From contig CAKZJV010000007.1 in the NCBI GenBank assembly GCA_937120475.1, positions 636,068-700,067 of the forward strand: a stretch of 64,000 nucleotides of DNA, written 5' to 3'. Under the pieces are notes generated by a model. That model made no database searches and was not told the origin of the DNA. It saw only the letters and a list, made by a program, of their open reading frames with translations. Every line of letters begins with the position of its first letter. Position 1 is the stretch's first letter. Both the position numbers and the translations under genes were made by a program. This document shows positions 58,129 to 63,809 of this stretch, piece after piece. The DNA comes from an uncultured Cryomorphaceae bacterium (lineage in GTDB: Bacteria; Bacteroidota; Bacteroidia; Flavobacteriales; Schleiferiaceae).

Positions 58129-58386
58129 TCAGTTTTTTTCGTTACTCAGCTTCTCCGTAATATCGATGGCCTCACCCACCGTTAACATTTTTTCAGCCGT
58201 GTCATCGTCAATCTCAATGTCGAACTCCTCTTCCATATCCAGAATGATATCCACCAGGTGAGCCGAGTTGATCTGCAGGTCTCGAAGCATATCCGTTTGA
58301 GCCGTCATATTTTCAAAGGCCGCCTCATTTTGAACATAAGGACGGATAATTTCCTTCAGCTTTTCCTCTATTTCCTTTCTACTCAT
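58129..58386 (-). CDS. Acyl carrier protein (divergent)
   Basis: The ATG at 58386 gives 85 residues (MSRKEIEEKLKEIIRPYV); 9 codons of the longer frame are left out. It has the four-helix ACP pattern with LRDLQINSAHLVDIILDMEEEFDIEI: the phosphopantetheine Ser is kept but the usual DSL reads NSA. The acidic second helix, which docks on partner enzymes, is intact. It is the last gene of the operon with the ketosynthase and probably carries a dedicated acyl chain, separate from the housekeeping ACP. Confidence 0.88.
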   Translation of the reverse strand: MSRKEIEEKLKEIIRPYVQNEAAFENMTAQTDMLRDLQINSAHLVDIILDMEEEFDIEIDDDTAEKMLTVGEAIDITEKLSNEKN

Positions 58387-59665
58387 AGTGCTTCCATCTT
58401 TTGAAAATGACACAACTGTTTACATCGCCAAACCCAAAACTTGATTTGGCAATGATATCGATTTTAGCGGATTCCTGCTTGCGCACCACCGCTTTTTCAT
58501 CAATGCAATCGGCAATTTCAGGATGAAGGTCTTCAGAGTTGGCCGAAACATGTACAAATTGCCTTTGCAATTGTAATAATGCCGCTACACATTCAATAGA
58601 TCCCGCAGCACTCAGGCAATGCCCGGTAAGCGATTTCACCGAATTCACCCTTGGAAAATCCCTACCCTTACGGTTCAGGGCAGCGGCCCAATTCTGGATT
58701 TCCAGAACATCGCCCATAGTGGAGGTAAGGTGCCCGGAAATCAAATCGACCTGTTTAGGTTCAATGCCTGCATTTTCCAGGGCACCGGTTATGCAACGTT
58801 GAGTGCCTTCATTATTAGGGGCGGTCATAGTACCCGAGCCTCTTTGTCCGCCTGAATTGGTAAATCCGCCCAGCACCTCTCCGTAAATGGTAGCGTTTCG
58901 GGCCAGGGCGTGCTCCAACTCTTCCAGTACCAGCGCACCTCCCCCACTTCCGGGAACAAAGCCCGAAGCGGTAGCACTCATGGGGCGTGAAGCCTTTTCG
59001 GGCTCTTCATTGTGGCGATACGTCAGTACCCGCATAGAGTCAAAACCACCCCAAACGTGTGGGCCATCGGCATCGCAGCTTCCGGCCAGCATTACTTTGG
59101 CTTTACCCGCCCGTAGGTGTTCCATGGCCATAATCACCGACTCCGTACCGGTACTGCAGGCCGAAGCATTGGAAGTAACCCAGTTACCCAGCCCCAGGCG
59201 CCCGCCCAAAAAGGCACTGATGCCGCTGGGCATGGTTTGTTCCACCACGGTAGTGCCCAGCTTACGTACCTTTTGCTCATCGGTTTTGTAAATGGCCTCC
59301 CGCAGGGTGTTCACTCCGCTCATACCGGTGCCAAAAATGCACCCGTAGTCCCACTGCGGACTGCTTTCCCGCGATTCAGGAATGGGTAAGCCAGCATTTT
59401 GCCAGGCTTCCATACCGGCAATAATTCCGTAAATAACGCCTTTAGCATTCAGTCGTTTGCGTTCCAACTCCGTAAAGTGGTGCTGCATCAGTTCCTCAGT
59501 CAGTTCAGGAACACCGCACAGCTGGCAACGAAAGTTCAATTGCTCCAATTCGGGTAGATACCGGATACCGGACTTCCCTTTTTGCAGAGCTTCTTCAAAG
59601 GCTGTAAGACCAACTCCATTGGGGGCTACTACTCCCAGTCCGGTTACTACTATTCTTTTTTTCAT
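58379..59665 (-). CDS. Beta-ketoacyl-ACP synthase (FabF-like)
   Basis: ATG 59665 gives 428 residues (MKKRIVVTGLGVVAPNG); the longer frame adds 11 unlikely residues. The Cys-His-His triad appears complete: Cys in SNASACSTGTES, His in SGHLTSTMGDVLE (GH-x-TST as in FabF) and His in KSLTGHCLSAAGS. Condensing enzymes of this type extend an ACP-bound chain. Here it lies between the ACP gene (8-bp overlap) and the dehydratase gene (4-bp overlap). Confidence 0.93.
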   Translation of the reverse strand: MKKRIVVTGLGVVAPNGVGLTAFEEALQKGKSGIRYLPELEQLNFRCQLCGVPELTEELMQHHFTELERKRLNAKGVIYGIIAGMEAWQNAGLPIPESRESSPQWDYGCIFGTGMSGVNTLREAIYKTDEQKVRKLGTTVVEQTMPSGISAFLGGRLGLGNWVTSNASACSTGTESVIMAMEHLRAGKAKVMLAGSCDADGPHVWGGFDSMRVLTYRHNEEPEKASRPMSATASGFVPGSGGGALVLEELEHALARNATIYGEVLGGFTNSGGQRGSGTMTAPNNEGTQRCITGALENAGIEPKQVDLISGHLTSTMGDVLEIQNWAAALNRKGRDFPRVNSVKSLTGHCLSAAGSIECVAALLQLQRQFVHVSANSEDLHPEIADCIDEKAVVRKQESAKIDIIAKSSFGFGDVNSCVIFKRWKHYE

Positions 59666-60102
59666 GGCCGTATCAACCCGCTTAATTGCCCGTAACAAGT
59701 TCGCTCCTGCTCACGGTTGTACATCGAAATCTCACACTTCAGCTTTCCCATTCGCCAGTATATTTTCCGGGACACCACTTTTACCGTTTCACCGGGCCAT
59801 ACCGGTTTTTCAAAATGTACATGGCTCTCAGCAAAAGCAATTTTAAGAGATTCATCCACCTTACCTTTTAAGCTTAACAGATACACTCCCAAAGCCACCA
59901 AACCTATCTGTGCCATACACTCCGTAAGTAATACACCGGGGGTAATTGGTTGAGCCGGAAAGTGCCCGGCATAAAAGCTGGCCGACTCCTTAAAAGTGTA
60001 GGTTCCGGTGGCTCCGTTCTCATCAATGTGCTCCAGGTCATCCACAAAGCAAAAGGACGGGCCATAAGGCAAAAGGTCGAGTATGTGTTGGTATTTTTTC
60101 AT
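59662..60102 (-). CDS. FabZ/FabA-like 3-hydroxyacyl-ACP dehydratase
   Basis: The 146-residue hot-dog protein has the FabZ motif GHFPAQPITPGVLLTECMAQIG with the catalytic His (H of GHF) and Glu (E of TE). The N-terminus ILDLLPYGPSFCFVDDLEHI is typical (LLPhr-pF-lvD). It dehydrates the 3-hydroxyacyl chain and fits between the ketosynthase and the reductase. It overlaps the reductase gene by one base and the ketosynthase gene by four. Confidence 0.9.
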   Translation of the reverse strand: MKKYQHILDLLPYGPSFCFVDDLEHIDENGATGTYTFKESASFYAGHFPAQPITPGVLLTECMAQIGLVALGVYLLSLKGKVDESLKIAFAESHVHFEKPVWPGETVKVVSRKIYWRMGKLKCEISMYNREQERTCYGQLSGLIRP

Positions 60103-60941
60103 CAGGCTACGGATTCTCCACCATCCACGGGAATTACTGCACCATTAATCCAGAGCGCTTCCTTGCGGCTCATCAAATACACTACATTGGCCACATCATC
60201 AGGCGTGGTAAGCCGGCCAAAAGGATTTCGCTCTTCACTTCGGGCACGGATCAATTCATGACCTTTGATGAAGCGTAAAGCACGGGTATCGGTAACCCCT
60301 GGCTGCAAGATGTTCGAGCGGATGCCGTAAGGCGCAAACTCCAGGGCAATGGAACGGGAAATAGCTTCAAGGGAAGCTTTAGCGGCTGATACGGCTGCGT
60401 AATTACGCCAGGCCCTGCTGCTGCCTTCACTGGTAAGAGCCAGCATCATCGCCTCCTGGGCCAGGCAATTCGAATCATGCAGGACCTTTACCCAATTGTA
60501 ATAACTCAACGCCATCGCCTGTATCGTCAATTGGAAATCCTGTTCCTCTAAAAAGTATTTTTCGTCTTCAAAAATGGCTGAAATTTTCTCCGCAAAACGC
60601 GTATCGCTCTTTTTTACAGGCACCATTAGCTTCAGGTTGCCTTTGGCTATAGAGTGCAGCAGCAGTGAAAGCCTGATGCCTTCGTTCTTTAGTTTACCGG
60701 CCACGGCCTGCACCACTTCGTTACTCAGTGCATCCTTATTAAAGGAAATAATAGTGCGATTATATTGCTGCTTAAGCTCCTGTAAATGCAACTCCGTTTC
60801 GCGCGCCTGCTGCTTTCGTTCCCGGTACAGCACCACCAGGTTAAAACCATCGCGCGCCAGCTTTTGAACACTGGCCCATCCCATGCCACTACTTCCTCCC
60901 AATATCAAAGCCCAGGGATTTTTTTGCAAACTCATCTCCAT
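60102..60941 (-). CDS. SDR reductase, enoyl-ACP-reductase-like
   Basis: The 279-residue protein is a Rossmann-fold reductase (ALILGGSSGMGWASVQKLA, GGSSGMG as nucleotide site; VLYRERKQQARETEL). The active site reads NYAAVSAAKASLEAI: Tyr and Lys are separated by six residues, as in FabI/FabL enoyl-ACP reductases, rather than by three as in ordinary ketoreductases. With KAS and dehydratase next to it, this suggests saturation of the acyl chain. No separate ketoreductase is in the operon, so the 3-keto step would depend on a housekeeping FabG. Confidence 0.87.
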   Translation of the reverse strand: MEMSLQKNPWALILGGSSGMGWASVQKLARDGFNLVVLYRERKQQARETELHLQELKQQYNRTIISFNKDALSNEVVQAVAGKLKNEGIRLSLLLHSIAKGNLKLMVPVKKSDTRFAEKISAIFEDEKYFLEEQDFQLTIQAMALSYYNWVKVLHDSNCLAQEAMMLALTSEGSSRAWRNYAAVSAAKASLEAISRSIALEFAPYGIRSNILQPGVTDTRALRFIKGHELIRARSEERNPFGRLTTPDDVANVVYLMSRKEALWINGAVIPVDGGESVA

Positions 60942-61990
60942 TCCAATAATAAACGTTGGGCCGAAAAACCAGGACCAAAACTCAGCATCAAGCCCTTTTC
61001 ACCCACCGCTATGTCTTTTTTCAAATATTCCTCTAAAACGTAAAGCACCGTGGCACTGGACATATTTCCGTATTGCCGCAACACCTCCTTGGTAAGATCG
61101 ATATTTTTACCGGAAGCGTGCAGGATCTCCTCCACCATTTTCACAATTTTTTTACCCCCCGGGTGAAAAATAAAGTGCTCTATATCGTGTATCTCCAATT
61201 TATTCCGCTGCAGGAAGGGATAAATGATCCGGTCAAAGTGTTCTTCAATCTTAGCCGGTACCTCAGGGTCTAAAACCATTTTAAGACCGCTGTTTTTCAG
61301 TTCAAAACCCATCATATGCAGTTCATTGTAAAAATGATACATACCATGATCCCTGATCACCGGTAGCACCCGTTCTTCATCAGGCCCCAGTATGGTGCAA
61401 GCCACACCATCACCAAATATGGCAGCACTTACCACGTTGGTCATGGAGTAATCATCCTGCTGGAAGGTACTGGTGGGCGATTCCATCGCTACAATAGCGG
61501 CCCGCTTCTCAGGCTGGGCCCTCAGCAGGTCGCGGGCATAAATAAGAGCCGATGTACCTCCGGCACAACCCATTTCGGTAACCGGCAAACGAATAATATC
61601 CTGGCGTAATTTAAGGCGATTGATCAGGTAAGCATCCACCGAAGGTATCATAATACCCGTGCAACTGGTGGTGATGATATAATCCAGATCTCCAGGTTGA
61701 AGATGCGCCTGCTCCAGGGCACTTTGCAGGGCCTGTTCCGCCAAATCGGTCATTTTATGAGCATACCAGTCGTTCTTCTCCTCGAAAGAGGTTTTGGTAA
61801 ACACATCCTGCGGTGAAAGGATGGAGTAACGCCTGTCCACCTGGGCATACTTGAAAATGCGCATCACTTTATCGGCAAAACGCTGGTCCTTGCCCTCCAG
61901 CCAGGCCTCTACAAAAGGCAATATCTCTTCGGTAGAGCGGGAATGCGCGGGCAAAGCTTTAGTAGAAGTAAGTATTTTACTTTGTTTCAT
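60932..61990 (-). CDS. Type III polyketide synthase (chalcone/stilbene synthase-like)
   Basis: Homodimeric type III PKS enzymes extend an acyl-CoA or acyl-ACP starter with malonyl-CoA and cyclise it to resorcinols or pyrones. The 352-residue product has the complete triad: Cys in VTEMGCAGGTSAL, His in FIFHPGGKK and Asn in QYGNMSSATVL. The GFGPG-like loop reads LSFGPGFSAQ. Length is normal. It overlaps the reductase gene by 10 bp and lies 6 bp after the methyltransferase gene, so the whole operon is tightly coupled. Confidence 0.95.
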   Translation of the reverse strand: MKQSKILTSTKALPAHSRSTEEILPFVEAWLEGKDQRFADKVMRIFKYAQVDRRYSILSPQDVFTKTSFEEKNDWYAHKMTDLAEQALQSALEQAHLQPGDLDYIITTSCTGIMIPSVDAYLINRLKLRQDIIRLPVTEMGCAGGTSALIYARDLLRAQPEKRAAIVAMESPTSTFQQDDYSMTNVVSAAIFGDGVACTILGPDEERVLPVIRDHGMYHFYNELHMMGFELKNSGLKMVLDPEVPAKIEEHFDRIIYPFLQRNKLEIHDIEHFIFHPGGKKIVKMVEEILHASGKNIDLTKEVLRQYGNMSSATVLYVLEEYLKKDIAVGEKGLMLSFGPGFSAQRLLLEWR

Positions 61991-61996
61991 AAAGTT

Positions 61997-62707
61997 TTAA
62001 AGGTTCCGTATAAAGATACTGTAGCGGAAAGCCCATTGCCAGCGAATGCTGTAATCTTCAATACCAGCTTGTTTTAGTATTTCCTCCCAATCAGCCCGGG
62101 TAAAACTTTTTCGGATAGAGAGTTTACCATCGTGTTTACTTACGTACGAAAAGTTAAAAATGCGCGAAACTATCTGAAACAAACGGTAGGCCAGCGGACT
62201 GCGCTGTAAGTCGTTAATGAGGATGTAACGGCTGCTACCCCTGGCATTCCTTAATATGTGTATAATTTGCTCTTCGCTAAAATGATGCATGAACAAATTG
62301 AACAATAAAACATCGGTTTGGTGCTCACTAAACAGTGGAGAAAGTACGTTCACCAGCTGCCATTGAATGGGGTAAGCTTTGGCAAACTCGCGGGCCAGTG
62401 CCAAAACGTTCGGATTTCCGTCAAGCCCGGTAAGTTGTACTTCAATATTTTGCGAGCCACTCCAATCACTGAGCTTTCGCAACATATCTCCCCCACCGCA
62501 ACCGGCATCTGATATTTTGAGGGGTCCTTCATAAGAGTATTCCTGTAATACGACTTTTAAATTTTTTAGAATGGGAGCATAACCTCCTAAAAAACGGTTG
62601 ATTCGCTCCAACTCCCGAAGGTTACGTTTCAGGTCATTACCCTGCAATTCAAAATCATCGAGGATTTCTTTTTCGTAGCTGCGGGTTTTAAAGGAAAGGC
62701 TTCCCAT
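61997..62707 (-). CDS. SAM-dependent methyltransferase
   Basis: The 236-residue protein has the class I methyltransferase fold: motif I ISDAGCGGGDML, motif II GLDGNPNVLALA, and the later strand DVLLFNLFMHHFSEE. In actinobacterial phenolic-lipid operons a methyltransferase follows the type III PKS and O-methylates the alkylresorcinol; the position here suggests the same job, though N- or C-methylation is not ruled out. It overlaps the FAD oxidoreductase gene by 20 bp. Confidence 0.88.
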   Translation of the reverse strand: MGSLSFKTRSYEKEILDDFELQGNDLKRNLRELERINRFLGGYAPILKNLKVVLQEYSYEGPLKISDAGCGGGDMLRKLSDWSGSQNIEVQLTGLDGNPNVLALAREFAKAYPIQWQLVNVLSPLFSEHQTDVLLFNLFMHHFSEEQIIHILRNARGSSRYILINDLQRSPLAYRLFQIVSRIFNFSYVSKHDGKLSIRKSFTRADWEEILKQAGIEDYSIRWQWAFRYSIFIRNL

Positions 62708-63809
62708 GCGATAAACCTACGGTTTTTTTGAGCAAATAGGGTGAGCGCATAGCTACCTGTAAGGCCAATGAAAATGCTTTGGGCGACTCCATCAACCTTT
62801 GTGCATAACGGCCAAAAATCAGCCTTCTATTAAAGGCCCTTTCCCACTGTTTTTGATAAGTACGCTCCATTTCTTCGCGGCTAATGCTACCCTGTAAAAA
62901 CCGGGCACCCTCCCGGGCGGCTATAGCCCCCGCTTGAATGGCCATGGCCATCCCATTGCCACATAGGGGGTGGATTAACCCGGCCGCATCACCACACATC
63001 AACAGGTGGTTTTCTACCGTTTTTTTGGATGAAAAATTAACCTGGCTGATCACCAGCGGTTTATTAAAAAGCCGTTGAGAATTTTCCAGTACGGCTTTTA
63101 ACGCGGGGTTCCGACTTAAATGCTGCTCTTCCAGTTTATCAATACTTCCGTATTCGCTAAATAAGTCCTGCTGGAGCAGATAGCAAAAATTTACCTTATC
63201 CCCTTCTACGCATGATACCCCTGCGTAGCCACCTTCAAAATAATGCAATCCCACGGCATCGGCAGGCCATTCCGTTTTAAGGTGCCACTTAATACCCATG
63301 TATGCTGAATGCCGGCTAAAAAAACTACGCTCCATAGTCCGGTCCAGGTTAGAACGTTTGCCAAAAGCACCTAGGAGTAAACTGCATTGCAGAGCTTCAC
63401 CGGAAAGCAACTGAACCGTGAAAAAATCACCATCGAAAGAAAAAGAACTTGCGGTGTCATGGATAAAAACAACGCCATTTAGTTTAGCTTTTTCGTATAG
63501 AAAATGATCCAGGGTATAACGGCTAATCCCGAAACCACCAATCTGCATCTGGCATCGGGCGGCTTTTCCCTGTTCATTGCTCAAGATAAAATTATCGATT
63601 TCCTTGATGTCATGTTCCGCGGGAAAAAGTTTGTTTTTTACCAGGTAATCCTTTACCTCATTGGAAATATATTCTCCACAAACCCGATGAAAGGGATAAG
63701 TTCTTTTTTCAATTACAATAGTGGGTATGTGCATTTGAGCCAATGAGATACTAGCGATTAATCCTGCTAATCCTCCTCCTATTACAATGGCATTTTTTTG
63801 TTTTTTCAA
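62688..63809 (-). CDS. FAD-dependent oxidoreductase (geranylgeranyl-reductase-like)
   Basis: The frame begins with TTG at 63809: an in-frame TAA lies two codons upstream, so no ATG is available nearer the start. The 373-residue protein has the N-terminal dinucleotide motif VIGGGLAGLIASISLA (GxGxxG), VIEKRTYPFHRVCGEY with the Cys typical of geranylgeranyl-reductase-like enzymes, and the second FAD motif LLMCGDAAGLIHPLCGNGMAMA. Such enzymes reduce or hydroxylate lipophilic substrates. It is the first gene of the type III PKS operon and diverges from a plus-strand gene at 63904. Confidence 0.88.
   Translation of the reverse strand: MKKQKNAIVIGGGLAGLIASISLAQMHIPTIVIEKRTYPFHRVCGEYISNEVKDYLVKNKLFPAEHDIKEIDNFILSNEQGKAARCQMQIGGFGISRYTLDHFLYEKAKLNGVVFIHDTASSFSFDGDFFTVQLLSGEALQCSLLLGAFGKRSNLDRTMERSFFSRHSAYMGIKWHLKTEWPADAVGLHYFEGGYAGVSCVEGDKVNFCYLLQQDLFSEYGSIDKLEEQHLSRNPALKAVLENSQRLFNKPLVISQVNFSSKKTVENHLLMCGDAAGLIHPLCGNGMAMAIQAGAIAAREGARFLQGSISREEMERTYQKQWERAFNRRLIFGRYAQRLMESPKAFSLALQVAMRSPYLLKKTVGLSHGKPFL

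Follow-up and report, generated by a model that had tools for sequence, protein, structure and literature searches.

Several type III polyketide synthases (PKSs) fed by an acyl carrier protein (ACP) are known, namely ArsB and ArsC, which receive their chains from ArsA, germicidin synthase and CylI (PMC6274091, PMC8086630). In Azotobacter vinelandii, the fatty acid synthase ArsA passes ACP-bound chains directly to ArsB/ArsC (PMC6274091), arsA being part of the arsABCD operon (PMC4314083), and CylI takes ACP-bound chains to form an alkylresorcinol (PMC8086630). Furthermore, operons joining a methyltransferase (MT), an oxidoreductase dependent on flavin adenine dinucleotide (FAD) and a type III PKS lead to alkylresorcinols in the hid and planctomycete systems (PMC10896814), with acyl-ACP proposed as the HidC starter (PMC8086630), and to polyketide quinones acting in respiration in the actinobacterial pkq operons (PMC9927152). 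In the planctomycete system, the MT and the FAD enzyme together produced a single methylation, the role of the latter staying unknown (PMC10896814). Here, we describe a seven-gene operon on the minus strand (positions 58129-63809) of a 64,000-nucleotide stretch of DNA, hereafter the window (C7:636068-700067 in genome coordinates), from an uncultured Cryomorphaceae bacterium, in which such a trio is joined to genes for a β-ketoacyl-ACP synthase (KAS), a dehydratase (DH), a reductase of the short-chain dehydrogenase/reductase (SDR) type and an ACP. Type III PKS clusters represent 10.7% (PMC10734526) and 9% (PMC7440613) of the predicted biosynthetic clusters in Flavobacteriaceae, and no product of a Bacteroidota cluster of this type was found in the literature searched, which was mostly without subscription papers, a description elsewhere being possible.

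We consider it rather probable, from the conserved enzymes, that an acyl-ACP assembled by discrete type II enzymes serves as starter for the PKS and that the pathway ends in a methylated, hydroxylated or oxidised alkylresorcinol or quinone lipid of the membrane. What is new is the joining of discrete type II enzymes, a dedicated ACP and usually a phosphopantetheinyl transferase (PPTase) to the MT/FAD/PKS trio, in an arrangement fixed across Bacteroidota; ACP-fed type III PKSs (ars, cyl) and MT/FAD/type III PKS trios (hid, pkq, planctomycetes) were already known. For a major environmental phylum, the operon points to a phenolic lipid or quinone as candidate product.

Comparison with described systems

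The operon shares the MT, FAD oxidoreductase and type III PKS trio with hidABC of picocyanobacteria and with the planctomycete operons, its PKS adjoining a class I methyltransferase and an FAD oxidoreductase as in hid- and pkq-type operons, as well as an alkylresorcinol as PKS product, here predicted. It differs from them in gene order (FAD-MT-PKS instead of MT-FAD-PKS) and in that they are reported without KAS, DH, reductase, ACP and PPTase. The pkqABC and S. griseus-type operons of Mycobacterium and Streptomyces also combine a type III PKS, a methyltransferase and a hydroxylase/oxidoreductase and give alkylquinones (PMC9927152), but these comprise three genes and no acyl-ACP set.

As in arsABCD, acyl-chain synthesis is encoded inside the operon (KAS, DH and ACP in 98 distinct operons, the ketoreductase missing). 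The initial annotation, which had presented the system as different from that of Azotobacter, thus stands in part: ArsA also feeds ACP-bound chains to a PKS, as in the case of CylI, whereas the Bacteroidota operon encodes discrete single-domain type II enzymes, a dedicated ACP and often a PPTase, with no multidomain type I synthase, and adds MT and FAD tailoring. The cylindrocyclophane (cyl) cluster likewise hands an ACP-bound chain to a type III PKS, as predicted here, and CylI is the nearest fold; however, its chain starts as a fatty acid placed on an ACP and is lengthened by type I PKSs instead of being made by KAS and DH. Finally, the same supply block adjoins DarB in two genomes, recalling the darAB dialkylresorcinol/flexirubin clusters, in which the DarB ketosynthase, rather than a type III PKS, closes the ring; the window PKS reaches 28.6 bits against the DarB model, whose cut-off is 550.

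Conservation of the operon across Bacteroidota

A contig scan with the window PKS gave 564 encoding stretches, the best 80 of which were examined together with relatives of the window genome and an even draw of the phylum. Operon counts (98 distinct) are given after removal of identical PKSs, and residue counts refer to 100 operon loci. FAD, MT, PKS, DH, KAS and ACP genes are all six present in the 98 distinct operons, and a search of Bacteroidota for the gene order, as the initial annotation proposed, found FAD-MT-PKS-(SDR)-DH-KAS-ACP constant throughout. The operon is therefore not a chance arrangement, since several Bacteroidota families share this order, with 98 distinct operons in all. 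The closest named relative is an Owenweeksia metagenome-assembled genome (L027), whose PKS is 78% identical, which makes a marine Flavobacteriales bacterium the probable source of the window. Four examined loci are without the full six-gene set; three of them are cut off by the end of a contig, and L065 has the PKS alone.

Among 395 Bacteroidota genomes, a strict-clade PKS (E ≤ 1e-180) is found in 33, and 27 encode a distant type III PKS with E values of about 1e-62 to 1e-77, while a cassette-type KAS (at least 684 bits) is found in precisely the same 33 genomes as the strict-clade PKS. The acyl-building set accompanies 20/20 sampled strict-clade PKS regions versus 0/20 sampled distant type III PKSs. 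This set linkage and the identical KAS and PKS occurrence rule out an accidental co-localisation of the genes. Distances between PKSs correlate with those between KASs (0.95), MTs (0.94), FAD enzymes (0.93), DHs (0.89), ACPs (0.87) and PPTases (0.87; Mantel p 0.001), correlations that partly reflect vertical descent as well. Plasmid searches gave distant type III PKSs only, with at most 35% identity among the matches listed. The proposed tie between an acyl-building set and a type III PKS with methyl and FAD tailoring is thus borne out by a fixed order across Bacteroidota.

An ordinary PKS fed by acyl-coenzyme A (CoA), beside which the fatty-acid genes would be duplicates that lie at the same place and add little to the supply, would agree with CoA thioesters being the substrate of most type III PKSs (PMC6274091), but the strict linkage, the dedicated ACP, the usual PPTase and the catalytic residues kept in every one of 100 loci make it very unlikely. 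The strict link to a dedicated ACP system rather provides a testable rule, namely that the starter would be an acyl-ACP and not an acyl-CoA. The predicted coupling of acyl-ACP supply to the PKS is well supported by this comparative evidence.

In three loci of the window's family (L024:1711-5505, L025:1083-4895 and L026:4735-8638), a distant type III PKS, 26-29% identical, occurs with MT, FAD and UbiA-type prenyltransferase genes (the Pfam match being checked in L026) and without KAS, DH and ACP. By analogy, these loci are possibly a prenylated relative of the operon, and can be compared with one cyanobacterial hierridin-like cluster noted with a prenyl link (PMC8086630).

The predicted acyl-ACP supply enzymes

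The KAS residues C181-H323-H360 and K355, the DH pair H47/E61 and the ACP S50 are invariant in 100/100 operon loci. The KAS reaches 291 bits with the NCBIfam fabF model, below its cut-off of 494, and is 30% identical to the housekeeping FabF of the same genome; the ACP is 39% identical to the housekeeping ACP that adjoins this FabF (C7:2262256-2263746). Judging from these identities, the KAS and ACP of the operon are paralogues that have diverged from the housekeeping FabF-ACP pair.

The Y181-x6-K188 motif of the SDR is invariant in the 48/48 operons carrying it. The best solved relative is FabL 3oic (135 bits, the next one having 102), which supports the enoyl reductase assignment made initially; a ketoreductase role was rejected because FabL is the best match. 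With 130 bits against the NCBIfam FabL equivalog, under its cut-off of 328, the enzyme is classified by sequence as FabL-like and not as FabL itself. Its gene is present in 48/98 operons, changes state at least eight times on the PKS tree, and is found in 1/32 Flavobacterium operons versus 14/18 Winogradskyella operons. The acyl route, first described as complete-looking, is therefore incomplete, with no ketoreductase in any locus examined and the enoyl reductase absent from half of the operons.

A holo-ACP should be essential. An eighth gene of about 165-200 codons, absent from the window, directly follows the ACP gene in 88/98 operons; its product, with GND, WSxKEAxxK and SxSHxG motifs and PF01648 over cut-off in both members scanned, is assigned on this basis as a PPTase. 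This position after the ACP points to a carrier-based route. No PPTase gene follows the ACP gene in the window operon or its close kin; elsewhere in the family of the window, nine genomes have PF01648 over cut-off.

In the proposed route, a PPTase would convert the dedicated ACP to its holo form, and the operon KAS would elongate the chain carried by this ACP with malonyl-ACP. The ketone would be reduced by the housekeeping FabG, the FabZ-like enzyme would dehydrate, and the bond would be saturated by the FabL-like reductase or, where this is missing, by a housekeeping enoyl reductase. Cys142 of the PKS would then receive the chain straight from the acyl-ACP.

Type III PKS and probable ring closure

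With 63 bits to PF00195 and 78 bits to PF02797 (cut-off 27), and with a C142-H276-N309 triad invariant in 100/100 operon loci, the window enzyme is assigned as a type III PKS, for which condensation and cyclisation are predicted. It is about one third identical to actinobacterial relatives. The enzyme would add malonyl units and close the ring, most likely into a 5-alkylresorcinol.

In Azotobacter, ArsB Trp281 versus ArsC Gly284 distinguishes resorcinol from pyrone formation, the absence of Trp freeing Met293 (PMC6274091). F229 of the window PKS, equated with this position only by its nine-residue spacing to M238 (ArsC Met293), is invariant in 100 loci together with M238, and in a profile alignment Pks11 has Trp and CylI has Leu at this place. 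A bulky residue here is compatible with resorcinol formation, no proof being implied. The structure model (predicted local distance difference test, pLDDT, 83.3) is closest by Foldseek E-value to CylI, including a complex with its resorcinol product, then to Pks11; since the TM-scores to CylI and Pks11 are similar (0.83-0.90), this ordering of the models ranks the two but does not decide between them. The Azospirillum match, a PKS accompanied by an isoprenylcysteine-type methyltransferase, was of no use for the ArsB/ArsC mapping.

The same acyl-ACP supply could alternatively feed a PKS that lactonises, giving a methylated alkyl-α-pyrone of the BpsA/ArsC/Pks11 type. Pyrones are a frequent product of bacterial type III PKSs, and among solved structures Pks11 gives the best match by sequence (195 bits; 209 with a profile). 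We nevertheless find this outcome unlikely, as Phe229, bulky and not Gly, occupies the presumed ArsB/ArsC switch, the resorcinol former CylI is nearest by Foldseek E-value, an FAD enzyme with an aromatic-hydroxylase fold makes more sense on a phenol, and the operon MT differs in type from the isoprenylcysteine methyltransferase found beside the type III PKS in Azospirillum.

Tailoring enzymes and predicted product

The FAD enzyme was modelled with a pLDDT of 88.9 (residues 276-284 being poor). Its nearest folds are flavin halogenases, with the Bmp2 brominase among the top matches, and 3-hydroxybenzoate 6-hydroxylase, while its sequence resembles the geranylgeranyl-reductase family, which together make an aromatic hydroxylation by this modelled enzyme plausible. 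The motif residues of the MT are invariant in 100/100 loci, and a search of the PDB with its profile gave weak and uninformative matches only. The MT and the FAD oxygenase would methylate and hydroxylate the ring formed by the PKS, leading to a methylated alkylhydroquinone/benzoquinone lipid that may be a constituent of the envelope or act as an auxiliary carrier of electrons.

Several points weigh against an acyl-ACP-primed alkylresorcinol or quinone pathway. The likeness of MT and FAD to HidA/HidB and PkqB/PkqC is one of protein family and adjacency. Pks11, the closest solved sequence, makes alkylpyrones yet has a bulky Trp at the cyclisation position, which weakens the case for a resorcinol over a pyrone. 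No ketoreductase gene was found in any operon locus examined; the acyl-building set is hence incomplete without the housekeeping FabG, which is encoded outside the operon (C7:719988-720701) and scores over its cut-off. PF01648 was not found over cut-off in three genomes of the window's genus (G000, which is the window's own genome, G001 and G002). Lastly, the lone L065 enzyme (L065:7998-9053) is a strict-clade PKS, 63% identical, with no usual partner nearby; it constitutes a natural test of PKS function without the cassette.

A probable supply block shared with DarB

A cassette KAS (553-625 bits) occurs without a strict-clade PKS in five genomes. In two of them (L198:6776-14544 and L199:6155-13792), an SDR-DH-KAS-ACP-PPTase block is divergent from genes that include DarB (635 bits in L198 and 615 bits in L199, cut-off 550) and DarH (454 bits, cut-off 300, checked in L198). 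In the three others (L200:7097-12246, L201:4825-9189 and L202:5606-9856), DH-KAS-ACP genes are flanked by GNAT-like and family-2 glycosyltransferase genes, the SDR being limited to L200 and a PPTase being detected in none of the three; this is perhaps a glycolipid or lipo-amino-acid pathway using the same supply block. As the block adjoins DarB/DarH as well as type III PKS genes, reductase-DH-KAS-ACP-PPTase looks like a portable acyl-ACP supply module. It would represent a simple case of a supply module swapped between two ring-forming enzymes, and its presence beside two unrelated resorcinol makers counts in favour of the acyl-ACP-primed pathway. The five KASs not linked to a PKS form one branch of the KAS tree (support 89/72, not strong) beside the PKS-linked ones; the outgroup is very long and the root, on which any direction of exchange depends, is unsure.

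The KAS-DH-ACP set could instead make a separate lipid or polyene part joined later to the phenol, the PKS not being primed by it. Flexirubins indeed link a polyene made by KAS and DH to a dialkylresorcinol (PMC3992019), half of the operons lack the enoyl reductase, and the block is also found with glycosyltransferase and GNAT-like genes. However, the operon has no conserved ligase or acyltransferase to join the halves, its KAS and PKS clades co-occur exclusively, and it has a single KAS where a flexirubin cluster has several, all of which renders this scheme quite improbable. Membership of a flexirubin/aryl-polyene cluster was rejected, with one other KAS match in the genome and no DarB in the operon.

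A broader proposal, in which this discrete block would be exchanged between unrelated resorcinol makers (mostly type III PKS, else DarB) and the PKS version would yield a dedicated methylated alkylquinone that serves, next to menaquinone, as an additional quinone of respiration or of the membrane, is possible though doubtful.

Operon features and neighbouring genes

All seven open reading frames (ORFs) of the initial annotation were recovered at their positions (Table 1), and their families and catalytic residues were confirmed by Pfam/NCBIfam matches and residue invariance. Transcription follows the order FAD, MT, PKS, SDR, DH, KAS, ACP, neighbouring genes overlapping by up to 37 bp or standing at most 6 bp apart. 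The true starts are probably ATG 59665 for KAS and ATG 58386 for ACP, which shortens two of the ORF overlaps.

Table 1. Genes of the operon in transcription order, with positions in the window; lengths are in residues
Gene product	Position	Strand	Matches
FAD-dependent oxidoreductase, 373, first gene; aromatic hydroxylase/geranylgeranyl-reductase superfamily	62688..63809	-	PF01494; geranylgeranyl-reductase superfamily 94 bits
S-adenosylmethionine-dependent methyltransferase, class I, 236, DxGCGxGD motif	61997..62707	-	PF13649; NCBIfam NF004851 136 bits
Type III polyketide synthase, 352, C142-H276-N309, F229 and M238	60932..61990	-	PF00195, PF02797
FabL-like enoyl-ACP reductase (SDR), 279, Y181-x6-K188	60102..60941	-	PF13561; FabL best NCBIfam match
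FabZ-like 3-hydroxyacyl-ACP dehydratase, 146, H47 and E61	59662..60102	-	PF07977; FabZ models
β-ketoacyl-ACP synthase, FabF/FabB type, 439 as ORF, C181-H323-H360	58379..59698	-	PF00109/PF02801
Dedicated acyl carrier protein, 94 as ORF, INSA motif with S50	58129..58413	-	NCBIfam ACP models, below cut-offs

Following the sequence past the window end places the 5' start of the operon at 63809, and no same-strand ORF of at least 130 residues lies directly upstream in the sequence so read. A promoter scan gave a site count no higher than in shuffles. Just past the window end (L003:8598-9548), two similar tandem cysteine-rich proteins of about 140 residues with signal-like N-termini are encoded divergently from the operon. 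In a sister species (L016:7971-10637), two genes are inserted between PKS and SDR, one of them encoding a PAS-type sensor-like protein of 751 residues. In L029, a YceI-like gene (L029:5624-6142) lies directly 5' of the operon and an MMPL-family transporter gene (L029:12387-14636) directly 3' of the PPTase gene; both flank the operon in 16 loci of Winogradskyella and kin (L029 and 15 more), which suggests export or carriage of the lipid.

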